From Eunapius fragilis (lineage: Eukaryota > Porifera > Demospongiae > Spongillida > Spongillidae): a stretch of DNA of 64,000 nucleotides. Under the pieces are notes generated by a model. It was not told where the DNA came from. It ran no database searches and saw nothing but the letters and a program-made list of their open reading frames with translations. Position numbers and translations under genes: made by a program. Location: positions 3,295,278 to 3,359,277 of the forward strand of contig OY811971.1 of assembly GCA_963681505.1 (NCBI GenBank), in the 5' to 3' direction. Shown piece by piece: positions 4,597 through 64,000 of the stretch (position 1 is its first letter; each line of letters begins with the position of its first letter).

Positions 4597-4662
4597 TAGT
4601 CTCGTACCCAGACGTATAAATGACGTTGTATAGGTTTTTTTATACGTCTGGGTACGAGACTA
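4597..4662. mobile_element. Short hairpin relative of the TAGTCTCGTACCC element (left copy)
   Basis: A 66-base inverted repeat with the same TAGTCTCGTACCCAGAC ends and a small loop, 43 bases after the previous element. Further truncated CTCGTACCCAGCCCCAC direct repeats occur at about 4819-4882, with a C-run. Confidence 0.65.
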
Positions 4663-5903: not shown

Positions 5904-5940
<37 letters not shown>

Positions 5941-6339: not shown

Positions 6340-6577
6340 ATACACATACATACATACATACATGCATACATACATACATACATACATACATACACACACA
6401 CATACATACATACATACATACATACATACATACATACATACATACATACATACATACATACATACATACATACATACATACATACATACATACATACATA
6501 CATACATACATACATACATACATACATACATACATACATACATACATACATACATACATACATACATACATACATAC
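6340..6577. repeat. (CATA)n microsatellite, expanded
   Basis: About 55 copies of the tetramer, with a short CACACA interruption. The orthologous site in the intact gene (36060-36129) has only about 17 copies, so the array has changed length since the duplication. YIHT/YVCM open frames here are artefacts. Confidence 0.95.
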
Positions 6578-31100: not shown

Positions 31101-34100
31101 AAGGAAGCCAGTCCTCCGCATCCAGTGCTGCTGTGAGGTCATCCATCAGCGAGCGTCCAAGACATGTGATGTACTCATCCACCAGAGGCCCAAAGATGTC
31201 CAGTAGATTTCTGTGAAATTTGCACAGCTTCAGAGTAGCTAGAGTATGGTGGAGGGGATGGTGGTGTGTGAGGTGTGTGGAGGTGGTGGTGTTAGACGGT
31301 GAGGAGGTGTTGGTGTGGTGAGGTGAGGTGGTGAGGAGGTGGTGGTGTGTTAGGTAGTGAGGAAGTGTGGTAGGTGGTGAGGGGATAAGTAAGATTTCAA
31401 ATTATGTTGTGCACAGTAGAGGATTGGGAAGGTGATCAGATGTGAGGGGTGTAGTCATACAGGGTGTGGTTGGATAAGATGGGTGTGGCCAGCTTACGTT
31501 GTGAACAGAAGTACTGGTTAATGACGTGCAATAACTGGATCTTGGATATGACATCATCGCATATCTTGAGGGATTCCTGGAGGTCTATCATCAAGAAAGA
31601 CCAGAAGGCCTCAATGTGATCACCCAGGACTGAGGGACACTCCACAAACTCCTGCCATGTGATATGAAGGTAAATGGTAGTGTTAGTCATGTGACGTGGG
31701 GGTAAAGGGTTGTGTTGGTCATGTGACATGAGGGTAAAGGGTTGTGTTGGTCATGTGACATGGGGGTCAAGGGGTGTGTTGGTCATGGTTGTTTGGTCAT
31801 GTGACATGAAGGTAAAGGATTGTGTTGGTCATGTGACATGGGGTCAAGGGTGTGTTGGTCATGTGACATAAGGGTAAAGGGTTGTGTTGGTCATGTGACG
31901 TGAAGGTAAAGGTTGTGTTGGTCATGTGACATAAAGGTAAAGGGTTGTATTGTTCATGTGACATGGGGTCAAGGGTGTGTTGGTCATGTGCATGATGAAA
32001 CATGGGGGGCACATGAGGGTAAAGTGTTGTGTTGATCAGGTGACATGAGGGTAATTCTGGATGTCATTTCCTGGATCCAGCAATGTACAGGTATGTGTGT
32101 ATGCTAGTGTGTAGTAACTAAAGTCCTAGACAGCATCGATGAAGTATACGTTTATGTAGCATGTATTTTAATTATATTCATAGCAAATCAATCCCTACAA
32201 TTCGGTAAAATATGTCAGCTATGTATGGTAAGAAAACGAAACTTATATAGCGTAACGTGAAGTCAAAAAATTCAAGTTTATTGGGGGTACTAAAAAAAAA
32301 TTATTCAGTTTGACAATATTTCAGTACCGCGTCCAAAATTAAAAATCATACTTTGATTCTACATGTGATGATATCTAAAAATACCGACAATCTCATTTTT
32401 TGCTTAAAAACTGTCCATAAGATTTTCAAGACAAGTTTTTAAACGTTTTTGCCTCATTACTGGAGCCATATTCATCACCCACTAACCATGTGTAAGCAAA
32501 ACAACGTAACTGTGAACCCATTGTTTACTTAACAGCTGTAATTGGTAAGAGCGTTGCTCAACAATCTCATCGATAAGCCCTTTCCTTTGTTCCTAACTGT
32601 GGCGTTTTTATATAAACGGTCAAGTGTTTTCAATGAATATAATTAGCTGCTAATTGTGAAATAATGTTTATAGTTATAATTCAACTCACTGAATTGTTTG
32701 TTAAAACTGGGCTAGTGAAACCAATATAAGGAACGTTCTTATCGGACCCCAAGGTACCTTTAAAATTAAAAAAATGGCACATTATTGTTACTTCCTTGAT
32801 GCTGTCCTGGACTATAATATCGATACCATGGAGGAAGGCTTCTTAATGAAATTATTAAATTCATGCCCACAATACCACAATGTGTAGAAATCTACCAGCT
32901 ATGTTGGCTACAGTACCGGCTCGGTCATAGAGAAATTTCGCAGCTCAATCATAGAGGAAATAAAGCGTATACATTGGGACTAAGCCAACTATTAGTTTTC
33001 ATAGCGGTTGCTGTGAACACCGATGGTTTCTTTAGTTACCAATGTATACGCTTTATTTTCTCTATGACCGAGCCGGTACTGTATAAAAATGAACCTTGTG
33101 CAGCTTAACAATTACAGGTTAATAGGGGGTACTTCAAAAATATTTATTCAATTCAACCATCATTTTGTACCGCTTCTACATGTATTGATACCTCTAAATA
33201 TACAATATCTCGTCTTCTGCTTTTACACTGTTTGAATACATTTTAGCCTCATTACTGGTGCCACCTTTAGACTGTGTAAACAAACAGCTGTGTCGCTAAA
33301 TAAATTGTTCAGAACTACAATGTAGATAGAGGACCGCAGGGCTGGGGACCAGATAGGTAGGGTGGAAACATGTTAGGGAACTAGTGAGGCATGGGCTGGA
33401 AACCAGGAAGTGGGAGGGGCCACCCACACTCACATCAATGTAGTAGTCGTGGAGCTCATACATGTAGTCAATGCACCTCTGTATCAGGTCCAACATCAGC
33501 GTGGGAGAGAGGGGTACGTAATCCTCAGAACTGACTGGGGGCGAAGACAGAGGTAGTGCCCAGTCCCAAGTTACCAAGCTGCTATTTTTGCATGCTTACC
33601 TTCCTCTGGGTGCTGGGATGCAAAGAGTTTGAACACCTCTTGGTAGTTCACCAATGCTGCCCTCTCCAGACAGTCCACTAGTACAGCATTTCTCACCATG
33701 CCCTTCTCACTCAGACCAGGCTGCATACTGCTGACCTGTGTGTGTGTGTGTGTGCATGTGTGTGTGTGTGTGTGTGTGCGTGTGTGCATGTGTGTGTACA
33801 TATAATAGGGTGTGGTGGTCCATGAATGCGGACATGATGCTTATGTAAAGTGACTTGTGGAATGGTGAACAGTAAAATTCCACTCATTCACACAACACAT
33901 CACATAGCACATGCACACACAAAACCTTTTTTGGGTATTCAAAAAATTGACCCAGATCGCGAACAGCATTAAGAGAACGTGAACCGCCCATACTTGCAGG
34001 ACATCTGGACAAACGTACAAATTAATTACTACTTTACTAATTACTCTAACGAGGAGTTAAAAAAAAAAAAAACAAATTCTTACGTAGGCTTCACGAGAAA

Positions 34101-35871
34101 CACAGTTTTTAGAGAACTAACATACAAGTTCAGAAATTCAAGCTACCTCACCTCCCATGTAGTCTCGTACCCAGATCCAGACTAATTATGTAAGCATTAT
34201 CGCATAATAATGTATAAAGCATTATACATCATTATGCGATAATGATTACATAATTAGTCTGGGTCTGGGTACGAGACTACCTCCTGCAAAATTTTTCTGT
34301 TGCCATTCAGAGGGGAAATGCTAGTCTCGTACCCAGACGTATAAATGACGTTGTATAGGTTTTTTTATACGTCTGGGTACAAGACTAGGGGAATGCTGCA
34401 TCTATTTTGGGAACTTTGCCTCCAACACCCTCGCCTTTGGGTGATGCGTAGTTTAAAACTGTGGCTTTATTGGCGTGTTCATGATGTTACGGTTTTTACT
34501 TTCATTTCATGTAGGAAGAGAATACACAAATACGAGTAGTTCACCCTCGTACCCAGCCCCACCCTCGTACCCAGCCCCACTGTTGTTCTCCATGTTATCG
34601 TTCATTTTCGCATACTAGTAACTCATAATGAAATGATCACATTCATTCCAAAAGATGTGTAATAATTTTATCTTCCCCAGTCAGCAGTGTGCATGGCTTC
34701 GAACTGATACCTTTTATTTGTGTTGTGCCAGCATGACAACTTATTCTTGGTTGTTACTATGCCTACTAGCACAATATTTAAACGCTTGGAGTAACCGTTG
34801 TGAAGTTGTTTTCAAAATGAATTAGCGTAAATTAAGGAATAAAGAGTCGACTTCAAGTATTGAAAGGTTACTACTCCAGATAAAGAAAAGCCCGCACGTT
34901 CATTACGAAGAGAACAACAAAAAGAAGCGAGCCACTGGACCCAAAGAGCGAGAAACACAACAAGTTTTGAAAAGGCTACGTTATCAATTACTTCATCTAC
35001 CTTCCATTTGTCAACACTTATCGGTATTTTGTTAAATGTACATTGATAAAAATAATAGAGGGAACAAGTAAAGAAAAAACATCCTATGAGAAAGTTGATA
35101 GGGTGTATAGAAATTAGAGGCAAAGGTTGTGTAAAAAGGACGGGAACAAGCTTCTGTAGGTTTTTGAAGGAGACAATACTTATCACGTGCAAATGTAATA
35201 GAACCAAAAAAGGAATGCTTTTGTTTTCCCCGAAAACATTGTTCCCTTCCTTTTTACACCACCTATGCCTCCAATTATTGCAATATCCCAACAACTTTCT
35301 CATTGGAAAATGTTTTTCTTTACTGGTGCATATGTGTACAAGTCGAGGAAATGGTTAAACATTTTAAGAAAGTGGTCAGCTATCCAGTACATGCAGTTAT
35401 CTCTTGAACGTTCTATTGGTAAGTCATTTTTGAAAACACAACTGCATGCAAGCATTAATGTACATCTATTTGACACATTGCAGTTCCACACAGCCCTATT
35501 CAATGTAAGGCAACTACTGAATGAATTAAAAAGTAAATTAACCAATCCTTTATATGAATGGGTTACATAGATTTAGCTACAAATGCTTGGACATGTTCTT
35601 ATGTAACACACCACCCTCACACACACACTCACACACACACACCTACTTACAATACTCAGCAGCTTCATGTTCATCTTGAGGTCATCCTTGGGCTGCCCAA
35701 ATGGGAAGCAGGTCCTGAACCCTTCTATCTTGCTGGCAGCTAACTCAGCTATCTGGTGGCTTAGCTTCACGAGTGCATCCCTCTCCTCCTCGGTGACAAA
35801 CACAGAGCGATCGTTGGGTCTGGGGACAGTACATCACGACATCAACAAACATTCACACCCCCATTGTGCAG

Positions 35872-35908
<37 letters not shown>

Positions 35909-38900
35909 CATGAGTACATTACATCACACATACATTCCTATGCACTCAGATACATATGCACACATAAATAAACATCACACACACACAACAAACGTACATA
36001 CACGCTCACACATACTTGCATCAAATATCACACACAAACCTATATGTACACATGTACGCACATACATACATACATACATACATACATACATACATACATA
36101 CATACATACATACATACATACATACATACACTCGTGCGTACATGAACACACATACATACATGCACACACATACGTACATGAACACACACCTACATGCACA
36201 CGCACACATTTTGAACTCACTTCTTCCCCGCTACGTGCATCTGTACAAAGCAGAAGCTTGAGTACAACATCAGAGGCCAAATGGACACACCCGTTTCCTC
36301 AACCTTCAGCCATTGCTGCATACATATGATGTGGCGGGTGCAGTCCCTCACACAGTACCTGTTGCAGTACTCATCCGTCACAAACAGCTGACCGGGAGAG
36401 AAGAGACCCTGTGTGTGTGTGTGCATGTGTGCATGTGTGTGTGTGTGATTGTGTGTGTGATTGTGTGTGTGTGTGTGCATACAGATTCCTGTAAATATCA
36501 AATACCCTTACAGTGTGGCTAAAGTTGTTCTACGTCATATCCACCATAGGCTTTAAAAATAAACAACACTTATTGTCAATCCTTGTTCAGGTGCTTTTGG
36601 CTCACTTAGCACCTCCAGGTGTCACATATTTAAAAGCCCTATGTCATTATGACTATATAGCAATACCCCTACACAGATGTATATACACACATGCACACAC
36701 ACAAATATGCATACACACACACACTCTCTCTCTCTTACCCTGTTGAAGGACTCGTCTTTCAGCTGCACCTCCAGTGTCCTGGCAAACATCTTTGCAAACA
36801 GCTTGTTATGGTCCAGCTCTGTTACGTCAATGGACACGATGTCTTTGATGGCGGCGTGCTTGTCCAGTTCCCGTGTCTCTGCCCCGAGGAGTTCTAGCTT
36901 ACTGGTACTCTTCTGCCCTGATGCCCTGATCATCCATTGCATCCAGCCTTCTCTCTCTTGCTTGTCCCTACACCCCAGACGGACGGTCCCTCTGTTAGAA
37001 CTGAGTTGGAACAGATATCCGGAGTCTTGCCCTTGAGGGATGTCCTCTGGGGAGTTTGTGAGTGGAAGTGTGCAGATGTGTGATGTGTGCAGATGTGTGC
37101 AGATGTGCCAATGCGTGTGCAGATATGTGTGGTGTGTGGGTGTGTGTAGAGTGCCATTGTGTGTGTGTGAGCATTGATAATGTATTGCTTGCTACACGAA
37201 TATATACATGTAAATGGTATATGTATATGCATTCACTGACAGTAAATCCATACATGTACACGTGTGTGTGTGTGCTTGTGTGTGTGTGTGTGTGCAAATG
37301 ATGATGTATCCTCCTGTGATAACAGTTTGCGGGTCTAAAAATAACATGTTCCAGCTGCATCCTCAGTACACACACATACACATTACATCATTGAAATCAA
37401 ACACACACACACACACACACAAGTACTCATCACACATGCACGCTCACACACATAAATACACAACAAACACAAACACACACACACAGTGACACACACACAC
37501 ACTAACTTTCCTCGTTGCTCAGATACTCAACGCTGTATCCATCCAGGGGTAACTGCTTTTGAGGTACAGTCACCATTGGCTTGTAGGAACAGAGGAGGAA
37601 CCTGTACTGTGAAGTGAGCTGCATGAACACAAAGTATCTTCTCTTCCATTGCTTGAACATCAGGTCTCCCTTACAGTAGAGGTAACTAAGGAAGGGGAGG
37701 GGAAGGAGAAGTGGGGAAGAGAAGGACAAGGGGATGGGTAAGGTTGTGTTAACTACATGATACAGGAAGTAACCACACATATACACGCACATACATACAC
37801 ACTAGGGGTTTCACGGAAGGGTCCCTTGGCAATTCTTTCACAAAGCATCCCTTCACACGGCCCGCTTTGGAATCAAAGTTTTTTTTTTAATCAACCCCTT
37901 ACCTATTTCCCAGATGAAACCCTTACACATCACACCACAACACACACATATTCAACACGTCCTTGTCATGTCTACCACACAGGGATGAAGCAGCAGATGT
38001 GAGGTTGCCCATAATAGTGGAGTTTCCCTTCTGTAATCAAGTCTCCCCAGCCATAAAAAAGGGTGTGAGCTTCCAGATAATGCTCACCCACACTTCTTCA
38101 CGTTGGCCGGCTTTTCACAGAACAGCGATATCTTCAACTTGGCTACGACAGCTCCCTTCTCCTCCAGGTCAATCCACTCAGTGGTATCAGAAGATGACAT
38201 TGAAGATACAGTGTGAACTTTCTGCACACATGTGTGTGTGCATGTGTATAAACGTAAATACACATAAAACATACCGCACCCATACAACATATCAACCAGT
38301 CGTGCACATACAGACACAAAATGCACAGATGGTTATGGACACACTACATGTACATTCATAAGGTGGTCACATGACGATCACATGACCATCACACGAGGCA
38401 CCATGCTCACACTCACAGTAGCAATCACTTTGCTCTCTCGAAGGAACCCTTTGGACTCCATGTGAAGATCAAATTGGATTTGTGGAAGAGGTGAGTTGGT
38501 GATTAAGTCAGCTACCTGGTCAAACCTGTTGGGTGTGCACACATGTTCTAAAGAGGTCCCAATGGTGTGCATCTATTAGAAACATACCGGGCAGACTTGG
38601 ACTGCAGGTTGACTTGTTCATGGTGTGTGGTCAGCGACTCATTTGCATTCGCAAGCTAAATTAGGATCATGTAAATATATCACAAAATACACACCCATCT
38701 TTCCATTCTCCTCCCTTCCTTCCCCACCTTCTTCTCCTCCCCCTCCCTTCTCCTTTCCTCCCTCCTCCCATCCCTCTTCTCCCCTCTCTCCTTGCACTCC
38801 TCTCACTACCCTGTACCCTGAAGACGCAGAACAGGGGCTTGATGTCAGTCTGGATGGTCTCCACCTTCACCTCATGGATGGTCAGGTGGACCTTGAAGCT

Positions 38901-47360: not shown

Positions 47361-47485
47361 AGTAACATTGTACGTACATTTCTCATTTGTAATCGTGTAC
47401 ACATGGCTACATATGAAATAATGTGTGCTATATTCTCTGTCCCAAAACATCCATTTTCATATCTACTTGTCCCGAGACTCACACC

Positions 47486-50400
47486 ATGTACACACTGGGC
47501 ACTCACACCATGTACACACTGGGCACTCACACATGTACACACAAGGCACTCACACCATGTACACACAAAGCACACACCATGTACACACAAAGCACTCACA
47601 CCATGTACACACAAGGCACTCACACCATGTACACACAAAGCACACACCATGTACACACAAAGCACACACACCATGTACACACAAAGCACTCACACCATGT
47701 ACACACAAGGCACTCACACCATGTACACACAAAGCACACACCATGTACACACAAAGCACACACCATGTACACACAAAGCACTCACACCATGTACACACAA
47801 AGCACACACCATGTACACACAAAGCACACACCATGTACACACAAAGCACACACCATGTACACACAAGGCACTCACACCATGTACACACAAAGCACACACC
47901 ATGTACACACAAGGCACTCACACCATGTACACACAAAGCACACACCATGTACACACAAAGCACACACACCATGTACACACAAAGCACTCACACCATGTAC
48001 ACACAAGGCACTCACACCATGTACACACAAAGCACACACCATGTACACACAAAGCACACACCATGTACACACAAAGCACTCACACCATGTACACACAAAG
48101 CACACACCATGTACACACAAAGCACACACCATGTACACACAAAGCACACACCATGTACACACAAGGCACTCACACCATGTACACACAAAGCACACACCAT
48201 GTACACACAAGGCACTCACACCATGTACACACAAAGCACACACCATGTACACACAAAGCACACACACCATGTACACACAAAGCACTCACACCATGTACAC
48301 ACAAGGCACTCACCATGTACACACAAAGCACACACCATGTACACACAAGGCACTCACACCATGTACACACAAAGCACACACCATGTACACACAAAGCACA
48401 CACACCATGTACACACAAAGCACTCACACCATGTACACACAAGGCACTCACACCATGTACACACAAAGCACACACCATGTACACACAAGGCACTCACACC
48501 ATGTACACACAAAGCACACACCATGTACACACAAAGCACTCACACCATGTACACACAAAGCACACACCATGTACACACAAAGCACTCACACCATGTACAC
48601 ACAAGGCACTCACACCATGTACACACAAAGCACACACCATGTACACACAAAGCACTCACACCATGTACACACAAAGCACTCACACCATGTACACACAAAG
48701 CACACACACCATGTACACACAAAGCACACACCATGTACACACAAAGCACACACACCATGTACACACAAAGCACTCACACCATGTACACACAAGGCACTCA
48801 CACCATGTACACACAAAGCACACACCATGTACACACAAAGCACACACCATGTACACACAAAGCACACACACCATGTACACACAAAGCACACACCATGTAC
48901 ACACAAGGCACTCACACCATGTACACACAAAGCACACACCATGTACACACAAGGCACTCACACCATGTACACACAAAGCACACACCATGTACACACAAAG
49001 CACACACACCATGTACACACAAAGCACTCACACCATGTACACACAAGGCACTCACCATGTACACACAAAGCACACACCATGTACACACAAGGCACTCACA
49101 CCATGTACACACAAAGCACACACCATGTACACACAAAGCACACACACCATGTACACACAAAGCACTCACACCATGTACACACAAGGCACTCACACCATGT
49201 ACACACAAAGCACACACCATGTACACACAAGGCACTCACACCATGTACACACAAGGCACTCACACCATGTACACACAAAGCACACACCATGTACACACAA
49301 AGCACACACCATGTACACACAAAGCACACACACCATGTACACACAAAGCACACACCATGTACACACAAGGCACTCACACCATGTACACACAAAGCACACA
49401 CCATGTACACACAAGGCACTCACACCATGTACACACAAAGCACACACCATGTACACACAAAGCACACACACCATGTACACACAAAGCACTCACACCATGT
49501 ACACACAAGGCACTCACCATGTACACACAAAGCACACACCATGTACACACAAGGCACTCACACCATGTACACACAAAGCACACACCATGTACACACAAAG
49601 CACACACACCATGTACACACAAAGCACTCACACCATGTACACACAAGGCACTCACACCATGTACACACAAAGCACACACCATGTACACACAAGGCACTCA
49701 CACCATGTACACACAAAGCACACACCATGTACACACAAAGCACACACACCATGTACACACAAAGCACTCACACCATGTACACACAAGGCACTCACCATGT
49801 ACACACAAAGCACACACCATGTACACACAAGGCACTCACACCATGTACACACAAAGCACACACCATGTACACACAAAGCACACACCATGTACACACAAGG
49901 CACTCACACCATGTACACACAAAGCACACACCATGTACACACAAAGCACACACCATGTACACACAAAGCACACACACCATGTACACACAAAGCACACACC
50001 ATGTACACACAAAGCACACACCATGTACACACAAAGCACTCACACCATGTACACACAAAGCACTCACACCATGTACACACAAAGCACACACACCATGTAC
50101 ACACAAAGCACACACCATGTACACACAAAGCACACACCATGTACACACAAAGCACTCACACCATGTACACACAAAGCACTCACACCATGTACACACAAAG
50201 CACACACACCATGTACACACAAAGCACACACCATGTACACACAAAGCACACACACCATGTACACACAAAGCACTCACACCATGTACACACAAGGCACTCA
50301 CACCATGTACACACAAAGCACACACCATGTACACACAAAGCACACACCATGTACACACAAAGCACTCACACCATGTACACACAAAGCACACACCATGTAC

Positions 50401-51377
50401 ACACAAAGCACACACCATGTACACACAAAGCACACACCATGTACACACAAGGCACTCACACCATGTACACACAAAGCACACACCATGTACACACAAGGCA
50501 CTCACACCATGTACACACAAAGCACACACCATGTACACACAAAGCACACACCATGTACACACAAAGCACACACCATGTACACACTGGGCACACACACCAT
50601 GTACACACAAAGCACACACACCATGTACACACAAAGCACACACCATGTACACACAAAGCACTCACACCATGTACACTCAAAGCACACACCATGTACACAC
50701 AAAGCACACACCATGTACACACAAAGCACACACCATGTACTAACAAGGCACTCACACCATGTACACACAAAGCACACACCATGTACACACAAGGCACTCA
50801 CACCATGTACACACAAAGCACACACCATGTACACACAAAGCACACACCATGTACACACTGGGCACACACACCATGTACACACAAAGCACACACACCATGT
50901 ACACACAAGGCACACACCATGTACACACAAAGCACACACCATGTACACACAAAGCACACACCATGTACACACAAAGCACTCACCATGTACACACAAAGCA
51001 CACACCATGTACACACAAGGCACTCACACCATGTACACACAAAGCACACACCATGTACACACAAGGCACTCACACCATGTACACACAAAGCACACACCAT
51101 GTACACACAAAGCACACACCATGTACACACTGGGCACACACACCATGTACACACAAAGCACACACACCATGTACACACAAGGCACACACCATGTACACAC
51201 AAAGCACACACCATGTACACACAAAGCACTCACACCATGTACACACAAGGCACACACCATGTACACACAAAGCACACACACCATGTACACACAAGGCACA
51301 CACCATGTACACACAAAGCACACACCATGTACACACAAAGCACTCACCATGTACACACAAAGCACTCACCATGTACA
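47486..51377. repeat. 3.9-kb minisatellite (22/24-bp units)
   Basis: About 170 units of CACCATGTACACACAAAGCA with CA, CTCA or CACA linkers and AAAG/AAGG variants, some with CTGGGCA. Runs of variant units recur in the same order, which shows higher-order block duplication. No stop occurs in several frames, so frames of 1100-1390 codons span it on the plus strand and shorter CVHGVSAL-type frames on the minus strand; composition (THTMYTQS) is pure repeat and not a protein gene. Confidence 0.95.
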
Positions 51378-52503
51378 TGTACGAGGGCACGTGTTGACAT
51401 CTTCCATAACGCGCGCACCCCTAATGGCATCGAAGCACATATTCGCAAGACAAAGTAAAACCGTACTCCATAAGAGTACAGACCAAGCTGTTGTGGCGGT
51501 AGAATCATCCACGGCACTAAATAGAATTATCAATTTTCAATGCTCGGATGTTTTCGATAAAGCACCCTTCCCCGAGAGAACAAAATGGTTCTCACATACT
51601 TAATATGCCTCTGATATACTTACTTTTCAATACTGTAACATCTGTTTCACCCTGCTCGCGTCACATCGTCCATGTATTACTTAGTAAAGCCAGTCCGTCT
51701 CTTTCGAATATTATGATACCTGCTCTTGGTGTGATTCCTACATCGGATCTCCGGTCGGAAGGCACTAGCGATCGAATAGCTGTTCTACCCATCTGACCGA
51801 TTTCAAACATTTGCATTATTCAAACGTTATCACGCGTTATCACGAGTCAGTCACACGATATCTAAATACGCATTTCATTCCGCGGTTTTCGTGGTTACGT
51901 TAATTATACGTTACGTAATTCTCCATATAATGCTATAGCAACGTTCGGCGTGCGCCGACATGTGTCCAAAACGTGTTGTGAACATAGTGACACGAAAGTA
52001 TAAGTGTAGCTAGTCTTAACATACCTGAGCAGCTCCATGGCAACCAACAGCTCCTCCATGGCCAACCACTTCATACTTCCTCCATATGAGCTTTTTTAAA
52101 AAAAAATTTGAACTTTTTTTTTTTTTTTTTAGGTTTTGTTTTGGAGTGAGGATGATTATGCACACTGCACTGTGCTTTCAGAGCATATCAGTATACCTCA
52201 ATCCTCACCTGCGACATCTCCACTTTCCCTCTTTAAATGTTTAAAAACATCAGTTTGAAAAAAAAACATTGGTAGGGGAGGCATAACCATTCGTGGTAGC
52301 ACCTCAAGTCCAAGTTATACAGTAGCAGAACAATATATGGCTGCTATTGCATGGCTTAGAGCTAACGTTCGATCAGTCCTTGGTCCACTCCTATCCCCAA
52401 ACACCCCAACAAGAAAATTGAACTGTACACGTGTGTGTGTAAACTTTACTGCATTTGAATCATTCTAATTTTAAAAATAAAAATAAACATTGGTTAGAAT
52501 GTG
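51378..52503. other. Intergenic, no gene recognised
   Basis: Between the minisatellite and the LOG gene. The plus-strand frame that leaves the minisatellite continues to 51603 without domain character; a minus-strand stretch at 51650-51795 (VGITPRAGIIIFERDGLALL) is open but unplaced. T-run at 52112-52130. Confidence 0.4.
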
Positions 52504-52919
52504 TTAGAAGGCTTCATTGATTTCTGGGTTTACTGCCTTTGGGAGGGTGCAGCGTCTGCTCAGCTCGTCTACTAGGGCAGCAGGGTCTGGGGACACCACC
52601 ATATCCTCGCTTGAGAATGTCACAAATCCTTCGGCTATTGCAACGTCCATCTGACAATAATTTTGAAAAGGGTGAAAAAATTTAACTTTAAAAGGCCCCA
52701 CTGGTGTACGGAGGAGAGAACCAGCCACTACATTAAGTTGAAGTTCAATGTTACATAACCTCTTACACTTGACACAGTTATGTATTCTCAATAGATTACA
52801 TAAGACATACACTCACAATGCAATGTAAACACAAAGAGTAAACACAAAGAGTAAACATTGAACTGGATAACCAGAATAAATCTAATTTGCCTGGTTCCCT
52901 CCTTGCCAAACCTAACTAA

Positions 52920-52974
<55 letters not shown>

Positions 52975-54371
52975 TATCCTATCATAACCACCTCACTGCA
53001 CATCACCTACCCATTTCAAGAAGTTGTCATAGTAACCGGCCACGTTCAGGAGGCCTACTGGCTTGTTGTGCAGCTGCAGTTTTTTCCAGGTAAGGATCTC
53101 TGTTAGCTCCTCCATGGTGCCCAGACCTCCAGGAAGTGCTATGAACGCATCAGACTTAGAGACACATAAAGCAATTATACACAGGCAATTCATGTTGTAT
53201 AAAATAAAATTAAAAAACATTGAAATATTAATGTTCAATCTCATCATCCTTATTTCAGTTAGTGTACTTAATACAGGACGCACTTTTTTGAACTATATTA
53301 AAGAAGAGTAACTAAGAGCAGCTTGTTTCATTTTCGATTGTACAAAGGTCATTCCTCTTTATCATATGTGAACAGCTAGTTTATACAACTTGTCCACCTA
53401 ATTTAGCAGTAGAAACGGTTTTTTTTTTACAATGACTTTTTAATTAAAGCTACTAAAAAATTATTTTACCAGAAAGCTGTCTGATTGAGCGTTAATTCAG
53501 TTCTTTTCATTGGGAAATCAGGCGTGTGGTTTAAACATTATCAGCAATTGAAGTTTTGTCATGCTTTGAAAGAAATTCATTCATTTTAGATCTTGTAGTC
53601 ATCTCTGTACCTCAGTAAGCATTGTAACATTGGTAGCAAGAAATATGCAATTCAGTGGTACTGCTTTGCCATTCTGATTCGAACTCGACGACTTCGATTT
53701 CCTTACAGATGACTGTGATAAAATTACTTTAGTCATGTGACCAATTCTACAGTACTTTCGATCTACCAAGCTGATGCTTTTTTTTTTTTCATTACCTCCC
53801 TTGTGTAAGGACCATGCTACTTAACTAAGGACAAATAGGAGATTAAACGTTAATTTTTACCAAGCATACATACATGGGTGGATCGTTACCATGGCCACTA
53901 TAACCTCCGCACCGCACTTACCCTATCAAACATCATCTTCTTTCTGGTGTGCATGTCCGGTACCGTAATCTCTTCACAGCCTGAGCTGTAGGCATCGTAC
54001 TCTATAGAGGTAACGATGATGTCAACGTTCGGGGGGGGCCATGGGGGTTATGGGGTCGGGGGGGGGGGGCGACTCAACTCAAGAAAAATTCTGGGATGAT
54101 TCCGGTGATTTTCCCGCCATTGGTGACAACACTGTCGCAGAGTTTTCCAAGCAAACCAAATCTACTTCCTCCGTATACCACGGCTATCTGTTTAGAGGCC
54201 AGGTAAGCACCAAGCTCTATATATAGAATAGGACAAGAAAGTAAACGGAAGGCGTGGGTAGATTACAAATTATCTTGGTGTCTCATCACCTGCTGCTTTG
54301 GCGGCAAATTCAGGGTTCTTTCCTACTTGAGCTCCACAATACACAGTTACTGTTTGCCTATTGTTTGCCAT
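52504..54371 (-). CDS. LOG-family nucleotide phosphoribohydrolase-like protein
   Basis: Five exons, phases agreeing: 54371-54290, 54216-54079, 54001-53922, 53154-53011, 52650-52504; 196 residues, the usual size of the family. Rossmann-like fold hallmarks are all present: [10 protein letters not shown] at residue 9, VVYGGS (~41), [11 protein letters not shown] (~62), then the signature pair [20 protein letters not shown] (~90-108) with GGLGTMEEL, which holds the catalytic Arg and Glu-Glu. Plant and bacterial LOGs release the free base from cytokinin riboside 5'-monophosphate; the animal substrate is unknown (TIGR00730 / lysine decarboxylase-like family by older naming). The GGSRFG variant replaces the more common GGGxxG. 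The exon 2 donor (GTTGAG) is weak. Introns and an animal-like setting argue against contamination. Confidence 0.9.
52922..52974. repeat. (CA)n microsatellite in LOG intron 4
   Basis: About 25 CA units with one TA interruption, 37 bases from the exon 4 donor. Confidence 0.9.
53155..53921. other. LOG intron 3
   Basis: 767 bases, AT-rich, no open frame or element recognised. Confidence 0.6.
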
Positions 54372-54690
54372 TTTTGCACTTGACAGGCTAAAATAATATA
54401 TCTCAGTCTGAACTACACCACGTGACTTCGGATTTAAAAGGACGTCATCCCTATACAGTATGACGAGAGCATGAATTATTGGCCGCGCGGAAAAACGTCA
54501 CGCTATGAATTGAAATAGCTGGCTAAGCAGCCATGTGAATGATATTTCTGACCACGAATTATTAACATTACTAACTAAATATAACAACCATTTTGATATC
54601 ATCAGAAATTTGATTTTTTTCTTAAATGCAGAACTCTTTACCAAATAATTGAACCTGTCATATCATACCCTAGTAGCATATCCTTTCACT

Positions 54691-55034
54691 TCACAGTTCC
54701 CCGTGTGACGATGGAAGCTGATTGGGGGACAAGTGCACTTCCACGGGTGGTGGAGGTGTAGAAGAGATACACTCCGCAGCTGAAGGGTCACATGACTGGG
54801 GTGGAGCAGTCGGGAGTGGCATGTCGGGTGATGGAGGGGGCAGGTCACGTGATGCACCTGGTGATGACGGCAGCTGGTCACCAGGTGTAGGTGGTTCACC
54901 AGCAGGGTGTCCACCGGTGGCTTGCTGTTCCTCCCCAGGGATATCAGCATTGGCTTGTTCCCCAGGGATACCAGGAGTGACCTGTTCCCCAGGGACAGCA
55001 GCATTGGCCTGTTCCACGTTATTTGATACAGGTT
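54691..55034 (-). CDS. Proline-rich open exon between CRELD and LOG
   Basis: A minus-strand frame of about 114 codons after a good acceptor (pyrimidine tract and CCCACAG at 55035-55041), ending in a stop at 54691. It holds internal repeats (PGEQVTPGIPGEQANADIPG) and a Pro-rich tail (STPPPPVEVHLSPNQLPSSH). It lies 300 bases after the CRELD stop and could be an alternative last exon of CRELD replacing the membrane tail, or 3' UTR. No upstream donor was identified. Confidence 0.3.
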
Positions 55035-55330
55035 CTGTGGGAGGAAGGGAGGGGGGTAAGGGAGGGGGAGGAGTAGGAGTACACATGTGAAGATCGTTCG
55101 GCTCCCAACTATTCGCACAATGTCCCCCCTCCTCTCCAAAGAGAAACGAACACCACGTCAATATTCTCCACGTTACATCGCAGCAATAGTGAAAAGAGGG
55201 TTGGCCATTTGGGAATTTGCCACATTAACAGAAAACTGTTTTTTTTAAACAAAAAAAAGTTGAAATTGAAAGTGCCAAAAGAAAGACCATATCACATGAT
55301 GAAAATAATAATAGGATTAAGATTAAGATG

Positions 55331-56592
55331 TCACCCATCACCAGCTGCTTTGAGGGCAACAGCCACTGCAAGGGTTAGCAGCACCATGGATACGAGGAGG
55401 TCCGGGCGGGCATACTTTAACACGCCCAGCAAAAGCACAAACGATCCGACAACATAGTACAACGAGTAACGGTGGTCCTCTCTAATTGTAGGGACATCCT
55501 CGCCGCTTTCTTCAAAATTACCTTTCTTCTTTTTAGACTTGCGTTTCTTCAGGGCACACCTGCCCTTCACCCTGACGTACCCCTCCCTGCAGTTGCACAC
55601 GTGACCACCCTCAAGGTTCCGGCACACCTCCGTATCTGGGTCACATGCTTCCAAGTCGCACTCATTCACATCTGCAATGTGTGGTGTGTGTGTGTGTGTG
55701 TGCATGTGTATGTGTGTATGTGTAAATATGTGTGTACGTGTATACATGTGTGTATATGTGCGCATGTGGGTGAGTGTAAGGTTAGGTGTGAAAGACGAGC
55801 ATTAGAGTTGAGTGGGTGGTCCTTCCCTCTCTCACTCTCCCCCCCCCTCCCCCCCTCTCTCTCTCTTTCACTCACCCACACAGGTCCCGTTCTCCTTCAC
55901 ATAGCCGGCTTTGCACTCAGCACACCCTTCAGGGCCTGGTCCTGAACACGCTAGCAAACAGGAGCTGTGACAACCTAAAAGATGTGTGCGCGTGTACATG
56001 TATGTGTGACATAATTACCTTCAACCCATCGCCCTCATAATACTTGCAACCACTCCATCATCTCTCCCTCCCTCAGTCCCCTCCCCCTCCTCCCTCACCA
56101 GCACACTTGTGGCTGCCTGGAGTGTTCCTGCAGTATGTTCCAACAGCACAGACCACCTCCCCCAATAGGCACTCATCCTTATCTGAAGAGATGGGACTTG
56201 TTACCAATAGCAACCAAACACCATGGTAATGGTGGTAGGGGGGGTCATGGGACCAAGGGGTAGTGTCGGGGCCAAGGAGTAGTGGGGACCAGGGGGTAGT
56301 GTGGGAAGCCAAGGGGTAGTGTGGGGGGCCAAGGGGTAGTGTGGGAGGCCAAGGGAGAGGACTAACCTTCACAGAAGCCATCTTGGGACATGGTGAAGCC
56401 CTGGGCACACGACTGACATTTTGAAGCACCAGGTCCAGAACATCCTCCTTGACAGGATCTGTCGCAGGCTGCAAAGGGTTAAAAGGTACATGAATTCATG
56501 CACGTATGTGTGTGTATTTATGTATGTATGAATGTATGTATGCATGCATTTGGAAGTGTACACACACGCACACACATACACACGCACGCACG

Positions 56593-56667
<75 letters not shown>

Positions 56668-58540
56668 ACAGTACCGTTACAACTATGGCTCCCGGGGATG
56701 TTCGCACAGTACGTCCCTTCTTTGCAGAGGTTAGGGGTGAGTGTGCATTCATCCTTATCTGAACATGTGTGTGCATGTCGTGATGTGGTGTGCATGGAGG
56801 TATGAGAGGAGACAATGTTACACACACACACTCCACCCCTTACCTACACACACTCCACTCACACTCCACCCCTTACCTTCACACACTCCACTCACACCAC
56901 CACCTTACCTACACACACTCCACTCACACCACCACCTTACCTACACACACTCCACTCACACTACCACCTTACCTACACACACTCCGGTATCATCCAGCAT
57001 GTAGCCATCGGCACACTCCCCACACTGGCTGCTGGCTCCGCCCCCACAGGTCTTGCAGGCCGCATTGCAGGCTGGGGAGGAGTTGGAGGAGGGAAGGCCT
57101 ATGACGCCTCACCTTACCAACACACAGGCTAATGTCTCCCCCACCTTACCAACACACAGGCTAATGTCTCCCCCCAACCTTACCAACACACAGGCTAATG
57201 TCTCCCCCCACCTTACCAACACACAGGCTAATGTCTCCCCCCACCTTACCAACACACAGGCTAATGTCTCCCCCAACCTTACCAACACACAGGCTAATGT
57301 CTCCCCCCCACCTTACCAACACACAGGCTAATGTCTCCCCCAACCTTACCAACACACAGGCTAATGTCTCCCCCCCACCTTACCAACACACAGGCTAATG
57401 TCTCCCCCAACCTTACCAACACACAGGGTCATGTCTCCCCCCCACATTACCAACACATAGGCTAATGTCTCCCCCCACCTTACCAACACACAGGCTAATG
57501 TCTCCCCCCACCTTACCAACACACAGGCTAATGTCTCCCCCCACCTTACCAACACACAGGCTAATGTCTCCCCCCACCTTACCAACACACAGGCTAATGT
57601 CTCCCCCAACCTTACCAACACACAGGCTAATGTCTCCCCCCACCTTACCAATACACAGGCTGCCCTCGCTGTAGTAGCCATCTGAACAGGCATCACACGA
57701 GTCTCCGTGGTAACCGGCATTACACGAACATGTTCCCAATCCGTTTTTCTCTTCCTCTCCCTATTTTAAGCACACTCTTTATGCATGCAGTTGAGGAAGG
57801 GGGGAGGCTCCTCACTCTACAGGTGCCGTGTCCACCACATGGCTTCTCTGCTCCACCGGGGCAAGCTAAAGGGAGGTGGGAGGGGGGGGGGGCAAGGGGG
57901 TAAGGGACGAGAGGGAGGGAGATGGTGGGATACTGAGTGTGCTTGTTGGTATGTGTGTTTGGGTACATCATGTATTCATCCACTTACGTTCACAACTTGG
58001 ACCAAAGTGACCAGGTGAACAGCACACTGGGAGGGAAGAGGGTAGGTGATAAGGATGGGGAGGAGGGTGAGTGGTAAGGATGGGGAGGAGGGTGGGTTGT
58101 AAGGACGGGGAGGAGGAGGGTGGTACAGGTGGGGAGGAGTGGCAATGATGGGGAGGGGGAAGGCGACACTAAGATGTCTGGCTCACCATCCAGATGCTTA
58201 AAGCACAGCCACTTCAACAGATCACTCTCACCCTTGTGTCTCCTGCAAGAAGAAATGTCACCACCACCACCCCCCACTCCACCAAGGGACCTCGTTGGAT
58301 TAGTACCCAATCCTCCTCTTCCCTCTTCTTCATCATGCAAGTAAATAAAAACAGTCTCGATTGCAAGGCAACGGGAAACAATAGAACGATTGAAACCTAT
58401 ATTTAGCACGTGTACATTATAAACGTGTTCTGACATTGTTCAGATATATCTCCTTAGCACCCGGACTTATTGAAACTGTGTCGTACATGATAGGCAAGTC
58501 ACAGGTGGGCATGGCACGAGAGACCTCTTCTGGCATAACA

Positions 58541-58584
<44 letters not shown>

Positions 58585-59707
58585 GTGTATGTATGTGTGT
58601 ATGCATGTGTGTGCATGTGTGTGTGTGCATGTGTGTTGGAGGTGTGTGTGTGCATGTGTGTTGGAGGTGTGTGTGTGTGTGCATGTGTGTATATGTACAT
58701 GTGTGTGTGCATGATGGCACATTGTGTGTGTGTATGTGTGGAGCCAGGCAAGATGGCCTGGGTCTGTTACACTGCCGGTTTACTGGTAACAGCCTAGAAA
58801 CATATACACAGTTGCAACATCACATCCCACATTACAACAATGGCATTCCAACGCGACATACACACACCTTTTGGTATTCACCCCCTGCATACAACCTTTG
58901 CGTACCCACAGTGTAAGGACTGGGAGACTTACAGTTTGAACCACCATCTCTCTATGTCGTCTTCGTACGTTGCAGCTAGGTCGTGGCAGTCGTGATCCGA
59001 AGTACTGCACACCTCATCCATGATTTCAACTAGACGGACCTCGCTTGAGGGATAAGCACAGGGTGAAGGGCTGACAGCATATGCTCTAATTATAAGCACA
59101 CATATGCAAAGTGGAGGGGGGTTGAAGATAAGCAGTGTGGTGAATAGGCCTTTGGGGAGGGAGGGAGGGGTGGGGGGGGGGGGGGGCAAAGGACAAAAAA
59201 ATGTTCATGCAAAGAGAAAAACTATGCGAGTGCCCGTTTCCAGGGTTACAGCAATCTGATCGTTCTCTACATGAAACGGGCCTGCTGGTGTGTTAACAGA
59301 TGTGGGCACCAATTAGGGCAACACATCATAAGGGAATGCAGGTTGAGTCCGCTCTCGACATTATCAAGTTGTCGTTTTTTTTTTTTCTTTCACCTGTTTG
59401 AATACGAGCCAAGCTTCTCCTCTTCCCAACTGGTGTCGCCCCCCGCGAAATTCGAGTTTGCAGTGGCTTTGAAGTTCTGTCGAAATGGCAATCCAGCTGT
59501 GTTTTAAAAAAACGACCATGGACTCCCAAAACGGGGTCCAGGAGCGCCCACCTTATCGAACGACTCCACAAAGCTTCTGCACACTTTGCACTGTTGCTTG
59601 GAACCACCGTGGCTACGACCGCCTAAACAGTGCTGCGATACGATTGCTAACGTCAGAAGTACCGTTACCCAGGTTCTTAAGCTTCCAGCCATGTCGGCCC
59701 TGGACAT
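55331..59707 (-). CDS. CRELD: CRELD: cysteine-rich with EGF-like domains, ER membrane type
   Basis: CRELD proteins are ER-resident folding/isomerase-like factors. Exons, all in phase: 59707-59552, 59476-59394, 59043-58933, 58242-58187, 58026-57988, 57865-57816, 57748-57649, 57071-56973, 56758-56675, 56468-56367, 56182-56099, 55974-55876, 55671-55331; 467 residues. A signal peptide (TWVTVLLTLAIVSQHCLG) precedes a CKVC motif with FVESF, then the family block NFAGGDTSWEEEKLGSY and SEVRLVEIMDEVC. Next come VCCSPGHFGPSC, a furin-like/EGF series (ACPGGAEKPCGGHGTC, CSCNAGYHGDSC), two Ca-binding EGF repeats (DKDEC...) alternating with CxxxCxxC modules, and DVNECD. The end carries a KKRKSKKKK cluster and two membrane helices, as in CRELD1. 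Exon 7's acceptor (GAAGAG) lacks a clean pyrimidine tract. Shares its promoter with HSP90B1. Confidence 0.92.
56581..56662. repeat. (CA)n microsatellite in CRELD intron 9
   Basis: About 40 CA units with some CG variants, close to the exon 9 donor at 56674. Confidence 0.9.
56826..56972. repeat. Minisatellite built from the CRELD exon 8 splice donor
   Basis: About four ~34-base units, on the gene strand GGAGTGTGTGTAG|GTAAGGTGGTGGTGTGAGT, directly after exon 8, whose own end reads GGAGTGTGTGTAG|GTAAGG. Each unit repeats the last ~13 exon bases and the donor. Confidence 0.85.
57110..57648. repeat. Minisatellite built from the CRELD exon 7 splice donor
   Basis: About 16 units of ~33 bases. On the gene strand each reads AGCCTGTGTGTTG|GTAAGGT followed by GGGGGGAGACATT; exon 7 itself ends GCCTGTGTATTG|GTAAGGT. 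So every unit carries a copy of the exon end and donor, and also a TTAG that could act as an acceptor 11 bases earlier. The array fills nearly all of intron 7. Confidence 0.9.
58543..58720. repeat. (GT)n and GTGTGCAT microsatellite cluster in CRELD intron 3
   Basis: Pure GT run, then GTAT and GTGTGCAT repeats and a duplicated TGTGTTGGAGG unit. Confidence 0.85.
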
Positions 59708-59822
59708 TTCTAACCACGTAGTATGGTAATTTAATTTGTTTAGGTTTCTCAGTATTAAATACAGTGGTGCGACGTGGTAAAGTGGTTTTTTTTTTTTGTT
59801 ATGGGTTTCCCGGGAGCACCGT

Positions 59823-59841
59823 CCAATCAGATTTAACCACG
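59823..59841 (+). promoter_or_regulatory. ER stress response element 1 (CCAAT-N9-CCACG)
   Basis: Exact match to the vertebrate ERSE consensus bound by NF-Y (CCAAT) and ATF6/XBP1 (CCACG), spacer of exactly nine bases (CAGATTTAA). Confidence 0.85.
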
Positions 59842-59862
59842 CCGCGCGTTCTGCAAAAGCAG

Positions 59863-59881
59863 CCAATCAATTTCTTCCACG
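59863..59881 (+). promoter_or_regulatory. ER stress response element 2 (CCAAT-N9-CCACG)
   Basis: Second exact match, spacer CAATTTCTT, same orientation, 40 bases (about four helical turns) after the first. Confidence 0.85.
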
Positions 59882-59971
59882 CGGTAACCAATTTGCCCAC
59901 CGGTGCGCGTATATTTCCGCCAAAACGCGACTCTTTCGTTACTGGTGTTCGATCGGCATATTGCGAGGACC

Positions 59972-62900
59972 ATGTACCGCAAGCTGGTGGTGATCGGTCT
60001 CCTTGGACTACTCCTCATAGCAGGTTAGTTAGTGCGGCTTCTTTATTTACGCTATGAGAGATCTTGTAACTATTCTGACTACCTGCGCTATCTGCATAAA
60101 TACCTCCCCCCTCCCATCCCTTCCCTCTCCTCTATCGCCATCCTCCCCCTCTTATCCAGGATGCCGCGCAGCTGCTGACGATGATGATGACGTAGAAGAT
60201 TCGGGAACGGTGGCGGAAGACCTCGGAGCTCACGCGGATGCCCTACGAACGGACGGGGAGAGTGTTGAGAGGTAAGAAGGGGACACCAAAATGGCCTCCC
60301 AGTCGCGTGATTCCACGACTGCAGCATTCGTCGAGACAGGAATTTTGTGGTTAAAAACGAGAGAGGGAGGGAGAGGGATAAAGAGGGAGGGAGGCGCTAC
60401 CGTACTAGTATTAGAAATGGTTCTCTCTGTGTGCGTTGCCAGGGAAGCACGTGCCATTAAGCTGGATGGGCTCAGCGTGGCCGAGCTGAAGGAACTGCAG
60501 GAGAAGGCTGAGAAGCACGCCTTTGCCGCCGAAGTGGACAGGATGATGAAACTGATAATCAACTCCCTATACAGGAACAAAGAGGTGGGGAGGTGGGGGA
60601 GGGGTGGGGGTGACAGGATGTATTCATTTTGGGGGGTGGGGAGGGAGAGGATGTTATTGCAGGGAGACCTTTGAATAATTTTGCCACTGAAGCACGTGGA
60701 TACGCGGAGAACTACGTGGATATGCGGTGATTTGCCAGAAATGTGATTGTGTGTGTGTGTGTGTGTGTGTGGGTATCTGCAGATTTTCCTGAGGGAGCTC
60801 ATCTCCAATGCCTCTGATGCTCTGGATAAGATACGTTTCCTGTCTCTGCTGGACAAAGCTGCACTTGGGGCCACAGAGGAACTGAGCATAAGGATAAAGT
60901 CTGACAAGGATGCCCGCATGTTGCACATCACTGATACTGGAATAGGTTAGGGAGAGAGGTGGTGAGGGTGGGGAGGGGAGTGGGAGGTTGTGAAGAGGAG
61001 CGGGAGAGGTGGGAGGTTAGGGAGACTGGGAAGGGATGGTTAGGGAGAGAGAGAGAGAAAGGTGGTGACTTTCCCCTTCCCTTCCTCGCAGGGATGACCA
61101 AGGTGGATTTGGAAAAGAATTTGGGTACTATTGCCAAGTCAGGCACAGTTGAGTTCTTTGAAAAGCTGCAAGAGAAAGACGGCCAGACTGCCTCATCAAA
61201 CGACCTCATCGGCCAGTTTGGTGTCGGGTTTTACTCCGCATTCCTCGGTACTGTTGATCTGAAACCAGTCTCTCTTGTGCATCTGTACTTACGGGCTGTT
61301 GCTTCCTCCTTTCCCTCCCTTTCTTCTCCTCTCATCCACCTCCCCTCTCCTCCCTCCCTCTTATCTCCCTCTCCCTCCCCATACCTCCTCCCCACCCTCT
61401 GTTTTTCCCTTTCTATCCCTTCCCTCTCTTCTCCCTCTCTTCTCCCTCCCTTTTCCTCCCCTCCCTCTCTTCTCCCTCTTCCCTCCACTCCCTATCCTCT
61501 CCCTCCCTTTCCCTTCCCTCCCTACCTTCTTCCTGCCTTTCCCTCCCCTCATCACCCCCTCTCCATTCCTCATCCACCTCTCCCCCTCCTCCCTCCCCCG
61601 TCCACTACCTCTCTCCCCTACACTATCCTCCAGTTGCTGACACCGTCATAGTCACCTCCAAACACAATGATGACAAGCAGTACATATGGACGTCCAACGC
61701 AGAGTCCTTCTCTGTAGCTGAAGACCCCCGCGGCCCCACCCTGAAGAGGGGCACCACCGTTACCTTGGTGATGAAGGAGGAGGCCCGCGAGTACCTGGAG
61801 CAGAACCAGTTGAAGCAGCTGGTCCAGAGGTACTCACAGTTCATCAACTTCCCCATCTACCTGTGGGAGAGCAAGGTGTGTAGGGAGGGGGAGGGAGGAG
61901 TGTTGCCATGGTGTGTAGGGAGGAGGGAGGAGTGTTGCCATGGTGTGTAGGGAGGGATGTGTGTTGCCGTGGTGTGTAGGGAGGGAGGAGTGTTGCCAGG
62001 TGTGTACAGAGGGGGAGGGAGGAGTGTTGCCATGGTGTGTAGGGAGGGAGGAATGTTGCCATGGTGTTTAGGGAGGGAGGAGTGTTTGCCATGGTGTGTA
62101 GGGAGAGAGGAGTGTTGCTGTGATATGTAGGGAGGGAGGGGGAGGAGTGTTACTGGTAGTGCTGGTGATTCATGGATGTTTGCCTTTCACACTTGTGCTA
62201 CACACACACACACACATACACACACACACACCCTGCTGTTCTCCTACCCACCCCTTACATGAATCACTTATTTGGTGGTGTCACTTCACTGACCTCTGAC
62301 ATCATCACCTCCATCCCATAACTTGCCACCTATAATGAAGACTGAGACAGTGGAGGAGCCGGTGGACAAGCCTGCAGACAAGGAGGAAGCAGACGACGAG
62401 GAGGCCTCTGTCACAGAGGAGGAGGAGGATAAGGACAAGCCAAAGACTAAGAAGGTATGACCTACCTGCCATGTTCATATTCTGCCCCGCCATGCCCCCC
62501 CTCCCCCCCCATGTTCACATCACCATGCCCCCCCCCCCTCCCCCATGTTCACATCACCATGCCCCCCCCCCCTCCCCCATGTTCACATCATGCCCCCCTT
62601 CCCACTTTACAGGTTGAGAAGACAACTTGGGACTGGGTACTAGTGAATGACACCAAGCCAATATGGCTGAGGAAGTAAGTGTGAAATAGAAGAGACATGC
62701 ACAACTTGAATTGCTCTTAACCCCTTAAGTCCTAAGGACATAGAAGACAAAGACTACGACGATTTCTACAAGTCCTTCACAAAGGTGTGTGTTGGTGAAC
62801 TGTCTTGTTCCCCTCCCTCCCTCTTCTCCATGCCTCTTTCCTCTTTCTCCTACCCCTCCTTCCCTATACCTTCCCTCTCTATTTATCTCCCCTCTTTCCT

Positions 62901-64000
62901 GCGTCCTTGCCTCCCTCTTCCCCATGCCTCCGTCACTGCACATGTGCCCCCCCCCACAGGATAGCCAAGCTCCTCTCACCAAGTCTCACTTCACAGCAGA
63001 GGGAGAAGTGTCCTTCAAGTCTATCCTCTTTGTCCCTGCTGTAAGGGTCACAGGTGTTGTATGCCTCACTAAAATCTCACACACACACACACACACACAC
63101 AGACTGCCCCATCAGATCTCTACACCAACTATGCAAAGCGTCTTGATCAGATCAAGGTCTACGTCAGAAGGGTCTTCATCACGGATGACTTTGAAGACCT
63201 GCTGCCCAGATACCTCAGCTTCCTTCGCGGGGTGGTGAGTAATGAGCTGTGTGCACGGGGCATTAAATAGGAGTGTGTGTGCATGTGTAGTGTGTGTGTG
63301 CATGCGGGCATTAAATAGGAGTGTGTGTGTGTGAATGTGTAGTGTGTGTGTGTGCATGGGGGCATTAAATAGGAGTGTGTGTGAATGTGTAGTGTGTGTG
63401 CATGGGGGCATTAAATAGGAGTGTGTGAATGTGTGTGGATGTGCATGGGGGCATTAAATAGGAGTGTGTGTGAATGTATTTGTGGATGTGCATGGGGGCA
63501 TTAAATAGGAGTGTGAATGTATGTGTGTGTGAATGTATGGGAATGTGTTGTGTGTGTGCATGGGGGGCATTAAATAGGAGGATATAGTGCACTTAAGGCA
63601 TTCAGTGCAATTAACGAACAATCTTTCTGCTGTCACTTGCTGTGAAAACAGTAATACATAATGTGTTGGTTTGGTCAAAGTCCTATTGCACTATGGGCAG
63701 ATAATTGAATATTCCTCACACACACACACACACACTTCTCCCTCCCCCCCTCAGGTTGATTCGGATGACCTCCCCCTGAACGTTTCTCGTGAGACCCTCC
63801 AACAGCACAAGCTGCTGAAGGTGATCAAGAAGAAGCTGGTACGTAAGGCCCTGGACATGTTCAAGAAGATGGAGGCTGACGTCTACAAGAAGTTCTGGGA
63901 GCAGTACGGGACCAGCATCAAGCTGGGACTGATAGAGGATGCTCCAAATAAGGCCCGCCTCTCTCAGCTGCTCAGGTTCCAGTCCAGCAACCACGCCAGC
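59972..64000 (+). CDS. HSP90B1: Endoplasmin / GRP94 (HSP90B1), 3'-truncated by the window
   Basis: ATP-driven ER chaperone of the HSP90 family. Exons: 59972-60023, 60160-60271, 60443-60584, 60783-60946, 61092-61247, 61634-61875, 62341-62454, 62613-62674, 62730-62784, 62960-63040, 63103-63234, 63755-64000 (continues). A signal peptide ([18 protein letters not shown]) opens it, then an acidic pre-N segment ([11 protein letters not shown]). The GHKL ATPase follows with [18 protein letters not shown] (catalytic Glu and Asn), DTGIGMTK and [15 protein letters not shown]. Next are the strand block [16 protein letters not shown], the Glu/Asp/Lys charged linker (exon 7) and the middle domain ([52 protein letters not shown]). 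The dimerisation domain and any C-terminal KDEL-type signal lie beyond the window. Start chosen at the ATG of the signal peptide. Confidence 0.97.
61290..61632. repeat. CT-rich low-complexity intron 5 of HSP90B1
   Basis: Over 300 bases of CCTCCCTCTC-type sequence forming one extended pyrimidine tract before the exon 6 acceptor. Frames across it are artefacts. Confidence 0.85.
61876..62150. repeat. Minisatellite built on the HSP90B1 exon 6 donor
   Basis: About nine ~30-base units GGTGTGTAGGGAGGGAGGAG-TGTTGCCAT. Exon 6 ends GCAAG|GTGTGTAGGGAGG, so the unit repeats the donor with its downstream flank. Confidence 0.8.
63255..63580. repeat. Minisatellite in HSP90B1 intron 11
   Basis: About seven units of GGGGGCATTAAATAGGAGTG with variable TGTGTGAATGTGTAG spacers. 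It starts about 20 bases past the exon 11 donor but does not copy it. Confidence 0.85.

Follow-up and report, generated by a model that had tools for sequence, protein, structure and literature searches.

In mammals, the ERSE has the form CCAAT-N9-CCACG, in which the CCACG half is bound by ATF6 or XBP1 and the CCAAT half by NF-Y, and in plants the pERSE has the form CCAAT-N10-CACG, at which bZIP28 acts with NF-Y (accessible part of PMC3645738). A head-to-head arrangement around such an element is described for mouse CRELD2 and ALG12, which are separated by fewer than 400 bp, with an ERSE in between, and whose mRNAs are both raised by ER stress (accessible part of PMC3091781). There, neither gene's responsiveness depended on how the ERSE was oriented or how far away it lay; the full region was hardly responsive and contained suppressor sites, and the response was weaker toward ALG12. 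In C. elegans, the choice of the last exon of crld-1 yields either a form with two TM segments or a KDEL form (accessible part of PMC6245729), and hsp-4 carries ERSE-II-like elements that are off consensus together with a CRE-like element (accessible part of PMC6448932).

Here, we describe a sponge locus that resembles the mouse pair, as far as the accessible mouse report permits comparison, in that a CRELD gene and a second gene of the ER pathway lie head to head around ERSEs. It differs in having GRP94 instead of ALG12 as the partner, in carrying two ERSEs where the mouse report speaks of one, and in that the sponge CRELD gene apparently encodes both membrane and soluble forms. Because the mouse pair is known, an ERSE-bearing bidirectional CRELD promoter is not new, and the great age of the ERSE design could be argued before from the ERSE-like element of plants and the joint action of bZIP28 and NF-Y. 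The new parts are, as far as our limited searches reach, the GRP94-CRELD pair and the set of exact ERSEs at four ER-protein promoters in a sponge. None of the titles listed by a search light on subscription papers concerns ERSEs in sponges, which is weak evidence of novelty.

GRP94 and CRELD are separated by 264 bp

In the window, by which we mean the whole stretch of 64,000 nucleotides of Eunapius fragilis DNA analysed, GRP94 (plus strand) and CRELD (minus strand) lie head to head with start codons only 264 bp apart (<1 kb). The distance is counted from an in-frame upstream ATG of CRELD at 59707; the next CRELD ATG is at 59692. Both genes were spliced by hand, and both models hold, confirming the head-to-head layout over 264 bases that had been proposed in the first-pass annotation. 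The features of the locus are as follows.

54691..55034, minus strand: alternative last exon of CRELD, joined from the exon 13 donor at 55522 to the exon starting at 55034 (predicted splicing)
55331..59692, minus strand: CRELD membrane form, 13 exons, 466 aa, with hydrophobic C-terminal stretches recognised by eye
59708..59971, no strand: putative bidirectional promoter and both 5' leaders, the 264 bp separating the CRELD and GRP94 start codons
59752..59762, minus strand: GTATTTAATAC, a weak candidate, possibly a TATA-like box of CRELD
59770..59777, plus strand: CGACGTGG, a weak candidate with one mismatch to the UPRE TGACGTGG (consensus from the accessible part of PMC3645738)
59823..59841, plus strand: ERSE 1, CCAATCAGATTTAACCACG, CCAATCA-N7-CCACG, sense to GRP94, CCAAT start 149 bp upstream of the GRP94 ATG
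59863..59881, plus strand: ERSE 2, CCAATCAATTTCTTCCACG, CCAATCA-N7-CCACG, sense to GRP94, CCAAT start 109 bp upstream of the GRP94 ATG
59888..59892, plus strand: third CCAAT, with no CCACG partner within 60 bases
59910..59916, plus strand: TATA-like TATATTT, 47 bp past the start of ERSE 2 (49 bp in BiP), likely the GRP94 core promoter
59972..64000, plus strand: GRP94 (endoplasmin), exons 1-12, exon 12 being cut by the window end

The GRP94 gene continues for 1,918 more bases beyond the window, and the spliced model comprises 17 coding exons and 803 aa with the C-terminus HQKEEL. The protein belongs to the HSP90 family (Pfam PF00183, E 6.6e-216), has a signal peptide by eye and a KDEL-like C-terminus, and is closest to endoplasmin, its best PDB match (Endoplasmin, 1054.9 bits vs 662.2 for HSP90-alpha). 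Its nearest proteins are one at 88% and Em0001g263a at 89%, the label of the latter being taken as Ephydatia muelleri. The CRELD model contains DUF3456 (WE) and EGF_CA domains, followed by hydrophobic C-terminal stretches (by eye, a putative TM pair) or an ER-retention signal in its two predicted forms. Among the 7,995 candidates that shared most words and were scored, the named relatives that rank best come from sponges, with Ephydatia muelleri first at 69% identity over 97%. In that species, GRP94 is labelled Em0001g263a (species assumed), whereas CRELD, located on a contig of 25.3 Mb, is labelled EMCRGX_G000378; the two labels follow different numbering schemes and are only suggestive as a hint on gene order.

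Several other features of the window were recorded. A 33-base tandem repeat (16.6 copies, 57110-57661) takes up the greater part of the CRELD intron that follows exon 7, and it extends about 13 bases into exon 7 itself. Directly downstream of CRELD lies a LOG-type gene (Lysine_decarbox, PF03641; ~52500-54375, minus strand; five exons, 189 aa), which is, to our knowledge, unusual in an animal. A satellite array of 3.9 kb with a unit of 22-24 bases occupies 47480-51377, and the stretches 115-9272 and 29820-38824 form a ~9-kb segmental duplication in the same orientation, with ~93-95% identity in its main pieces.

One CRELD gene with two predicted ends

Both alternative ends of CRELD, one with the hydrophobic stretches and one with SSHGEL, are encoded on the minus strand within 54691-55671. 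In the membrane form, exon 13 is predicted to be read through its splice donor into the hydrophobic stretches, while the predicted soluble form of 517 aa ends in SSHGEL. The Ephydatia muelleri relative has the C-terminus SSSHEEL, and the Geodia protein has an end that by eye is similar to the membrane form. A single sponge gene thus apparently encodes a CRELD1-like membrane form as well as a CRELD2-like form that is retained in the ER and, given these two ends, may cover both CRELD1 and CRELD2. The first-pass annotation had pointed to CRELD2 of vertebrates; the sponge gene is not simply CRELD2, since it can apparently give a membrane form as well as a soluble one. As in C. elegans crld-1 (going by the accessible part of that report), one CRELD gene would provide membrane and ER-retained forms by a choice of ends; unlike there, the predicted membrane form of the sponge arises by read-through of the exon 13 donor and not from a separate exon.

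Two exact ERSEs in the shared region

Exact matches to CCAAT-N9-CCACG occur in the 64-kb window at ERSE 1 and ERSE 2 only, as against 0.15 expected, and none of 100 shuffles contained two. Their starts at 59823 and 59863 are exactly 40 bases apart, with 21 bp in between, which bears out the two perfect elements of the first-pass annotation. With one mismatch allowed, the window contains four matches vs 4.3 expected and thus no excess, so it is the exact form that carries the signal. The two elements are 75% alike across 20 bases and are not joined by a longer repeat. A Poisson estimate for two general ERSEs within one 264-bp stretch is ~5e-8, or 0.002 over 40,000 promoters (an assumed number); this and the corresponding genome-wide figure serve as a guide only, since a uniform rate is assumed and calreticulin and the PDIA6-like gene were found via the element. 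BiP, for its part, was found gene first and not through the element.

Exact ERSEs mark a small set of ER-protein genes

We searched the host assembly (219 Mb, 24 contigs) for the general ERSE and for the NF-Y-type form present at GRP94. The general CCAAT-N9-CCACG has 267 sites vs 562 for its reversed control and, being rarer than that control, says little by count alone. The NF-Y-type CCAATCA-N7-CCACG has 15 sites vs nine for the reversed-pattern control, and five of the 15 lie 84-149 bp upstream of ATGs, all in sense orientation: two at GRP94 and one each at BiP, calreticulin and a PDIA6-like gene. The element is thus found in the proximal promoters of ER folding protein genes, at GRP94/CRELD as well as at BiP (128 bp upstream of the ATG; the protein has a signal peptide by eye and the C-terminal EDKDEL), at calreticulin (89 bp upstream of the start) and at the PDIA6-like gene (84 bp upstream, overlapping an ERSE-II, CGTGG-N-CCAAT). 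The first exons of the latter match thioredoxin and PDI chains, among which DNAJC10 and PDIA3 outscore the PDIA6 chains (rank 14). We presume PDIA6 to be the better name from the N-terminal flank and two thioredoxin domains; it is the least firm identity of the set.

The spacing at these genes is uniform. In the 264-300 bp upstream of the four genes, all five CCAATs that have a same-strand CCACG within 60 bases have it after a 9-bp spacer; the CCAAT of ERSE 1 also pairs with a second CCACG at 49 bp, and three further CCAATs in these stretches are without CCACG. Genome-wide, the CCAATCA form has seven sites with N10 and 25 with N8 (among which a few spacers recur many times), and none of these lies at GRP94, BiP, calreticulin or the PDIA6-like gene. 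Because N8 sites outnumber N9 sites, the argument rests on the location of the N9 sites and not on their number. CCAATGA (35 sites) and CCAATSG (58 sites) are largely repeats of a few spacers and are absent from the four ERSE genes; general forms beyond these three were covered among the matches listed, from the first contigs. By eye, a TATA-like sequence follows ~40-50 bp past the CCAAT start at four of the five sites, ERSE 1 being the exception. The sponge spacers are AT-rich and without GGC. Mammalian ERSEs feature GC-rich spacers that contain GGC, and mammalian GRP promoters carry several such GC-rich copies. The sponge promoters share the exact mammalian consensus and spacing, found here close to where GRP94, BiP, calreticulin and the PDIA6-like gene begin to be translated, and differ in the AT-rich spacer and in having one or two elements each. 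A GCGCG follows two to three bases after the CCACG half at BiP (L049), the PDIA6-like gene (L064) and GRP94 ERSE 1 (59842-59848) and is possibly a site for a further bound factor.

An HSP70 search returned 30 loci, of which only the four overlapping BiP loci carry it, while the other 26, labelled cytosolic and mitochondrial by eye, are without; one HSP70-family locus (L058) contains a weak CCAATCCTATATGCCACC. Among 25 thioredoxin-family matches, three further genes were read, and no CCAAT-N8..10-CCAC(G/A/C) was found upstream of the P4HB-like (C11, ~2.7 kb), PDIA3-like (C22, ~2.2 kb) or PDIA5-like gene (C20, ~0.75 kb), so the ERSE gene set is small. Two TGACGTG(G/A) matches near these three genes were discarded as lying inside coding frames by eye. 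As to the ten other CCAATCA-N7-CCACG sites, three were rejected as coding exons according to Pfam (Vps18-like, protein kinase, Sec23 trunk) and three (L066, L070, L073) as ORFs without Pfam match that by eye look like those of mobile elements; the remaining four (L063, L069, L074, L075) may include further ERSE genes.

These positions bear on two simpler accounts of the elements. That the two exact matches arose by chance is in keeping with a general element whose count falls below its reversed control, but the probability of two in 264 bp and the recurrence of this form at BiP, calreticulin and the PDIA6-like gene largely contradict it, and we consider it barely credible. The second account takes the region as a basal NF-Y promoter, with CCAAT boxes driving constitutive divergent transcription and CCACG halves that are incidental. 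There is at least one further bidirectional promoter in which NF-Y boxes act, as far as the accessible literature describes it, and the third CCAAT without CCACG would fit such a role. However, a basal promoter would not account for a spacer that is fixed at 9 bp in five sites of four ER-protein promoters, genes at which this form never has a spacer of 8 or 10 bp, and a uniform-chance estimate for four matches in 20 promoters of 300 bp is ~1e-15, a rough figure given that two of the genes were found by the element. We regard this account as improbable.

Candidate factors in the genome

The genome contains candidates for some of the factors that bind ERSEs in mammals. In a bZIP survey, in which nine of ten matches were read, one protein combines a basic region like that of ATF6 (KRQQRMMKNRESALVSRQKKKE) with a hydrophobic stretch downstream of the zipper; others resemble OASIS/CREB3 and XBP1, assignments that we presume from their motifs. 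The CBFD_NFYB_HMF family gave 22 matches, and the three short stretches read are NF-YB-like, NF-YC-like and DR1-like; exons of NF-YB and NF-YC are found in the genome. For NF-YA, a search run without a positive control gave no match to its Pfam family in the genome. An ATF6 family has been placed before animals (accessible part of PMC4736632).

Does the region control both genes?

We consider it likely that the 264 bp act as a promoter that responds to ER stress in both directions, from which GRP94 is raised strongly and CRELD probably less; the binding, the induction and the action on CRELD are what we infer from the elements. NF-Y would occupy both CCAATCA boxes, and ER stress would bring a released ATF6-type bZIP, or XBP1/OASIS-type relatives, onto the CCACG halves nine bases away. 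Together, NF-Y and the bZIP would then raise GRP94 strongly and, on the opposite strand, CRELD probably to a lesser degree, and the promoter would belong to a small sponge ERSE set with BiP, calreticulin and the PDIA6-like gene. For GRP94, ERSE-type control is well supported at the level of sequence, and a rise through both elements is expected by analogy with mammalian ATF6/XBP1 and NF-Y. Joint control of CRELD is plausible; its case is weaker because the ERSEs are antisense to CRELD, with ERSE 1 116-131 bp from the CRELD start codons.

The elements might instead serve GRP94 only, with CRELD a bystander whose start happens to be near in a compact genome. Both ERSEs have the sense orientation relative to GRP94 and start 109-149 bp before its ATG, much like the elements of the other three genes, and the ERSE/ERSE-II of the PDIA6-like gene (L064, C3:4255736) lies between that gene and a head-to-head methionyl-tRNA synthetase-like gene, so proximity alone means little. 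The head-to-head layout by itself is for the same reason insufficient for the compact UPR module suggested in the first-pass annotation, although its genes and elements stand. Against a GRP94-only role, mouse CRELD2 is an ERSE/ATF6 target, and in its bidirectional promoter neither the orientation nor the distance of the element mattered (accessible part of PMC3091781); the sponge CRELD gene is apparently able to make a CRELD2-like, ER-retained form. We judge control of GRP94 alone to be rather unlikely and favour the bidirectional, stress-responsive promoter.

The age of the ERSE code

Since the same rare switch stands at three more folding-helper genes, control by ERSEs seems to date back to the first animals. 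The proposal of the first-pass annotation that control of this kind reaches back to sponges gains support from the ERSEs of BiP, calreticulin and the PDIA6-like gene and from the ATF6-like bZIP gene. As a new idea, however, ancient ATF6/NF-Y control is preceded by the plant CCAAT-N10-CACG with bZIP28 and NF-Y (accessible part of PMC3645738), and the annotation had missed the ERSE-bearing head-to-head promoter that mouse CRELD2 shares with ALG12 (accessible part of PMC3091781). As far as that plant source goes, the pERSE has the same two half-sites, an equal CCAAT-CACG distance and the NF-Y partner; it uses a plant bZIP, unlike the sponge case, and the likeness is one of design and not of established common descent. 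A further-reaching reading is that an ATF6/NF-Y site with a 9-bp spacer, in sense and promoter-proximal, has been kept at BiP, GRP94, calreticulin, PDIA6 and CRELD since the sponge-vertebrate ancestor, together with a GRP94-CRELD two-way module kept in sponges; we offer it tentatively and lean somewhat against it.

Regulatory sequences are seldom recognisable across sponges and vertebrates. With an exact composite element of fixed spacing standing in a sponge at the ER-chaperone genes where one would look for it, the age of the UPR's ATF6/NF-Y arm can be put to a direct test, and the region between GRP94 and CRELD is a single natural fragment for asking whether an ERSE drives both directions.
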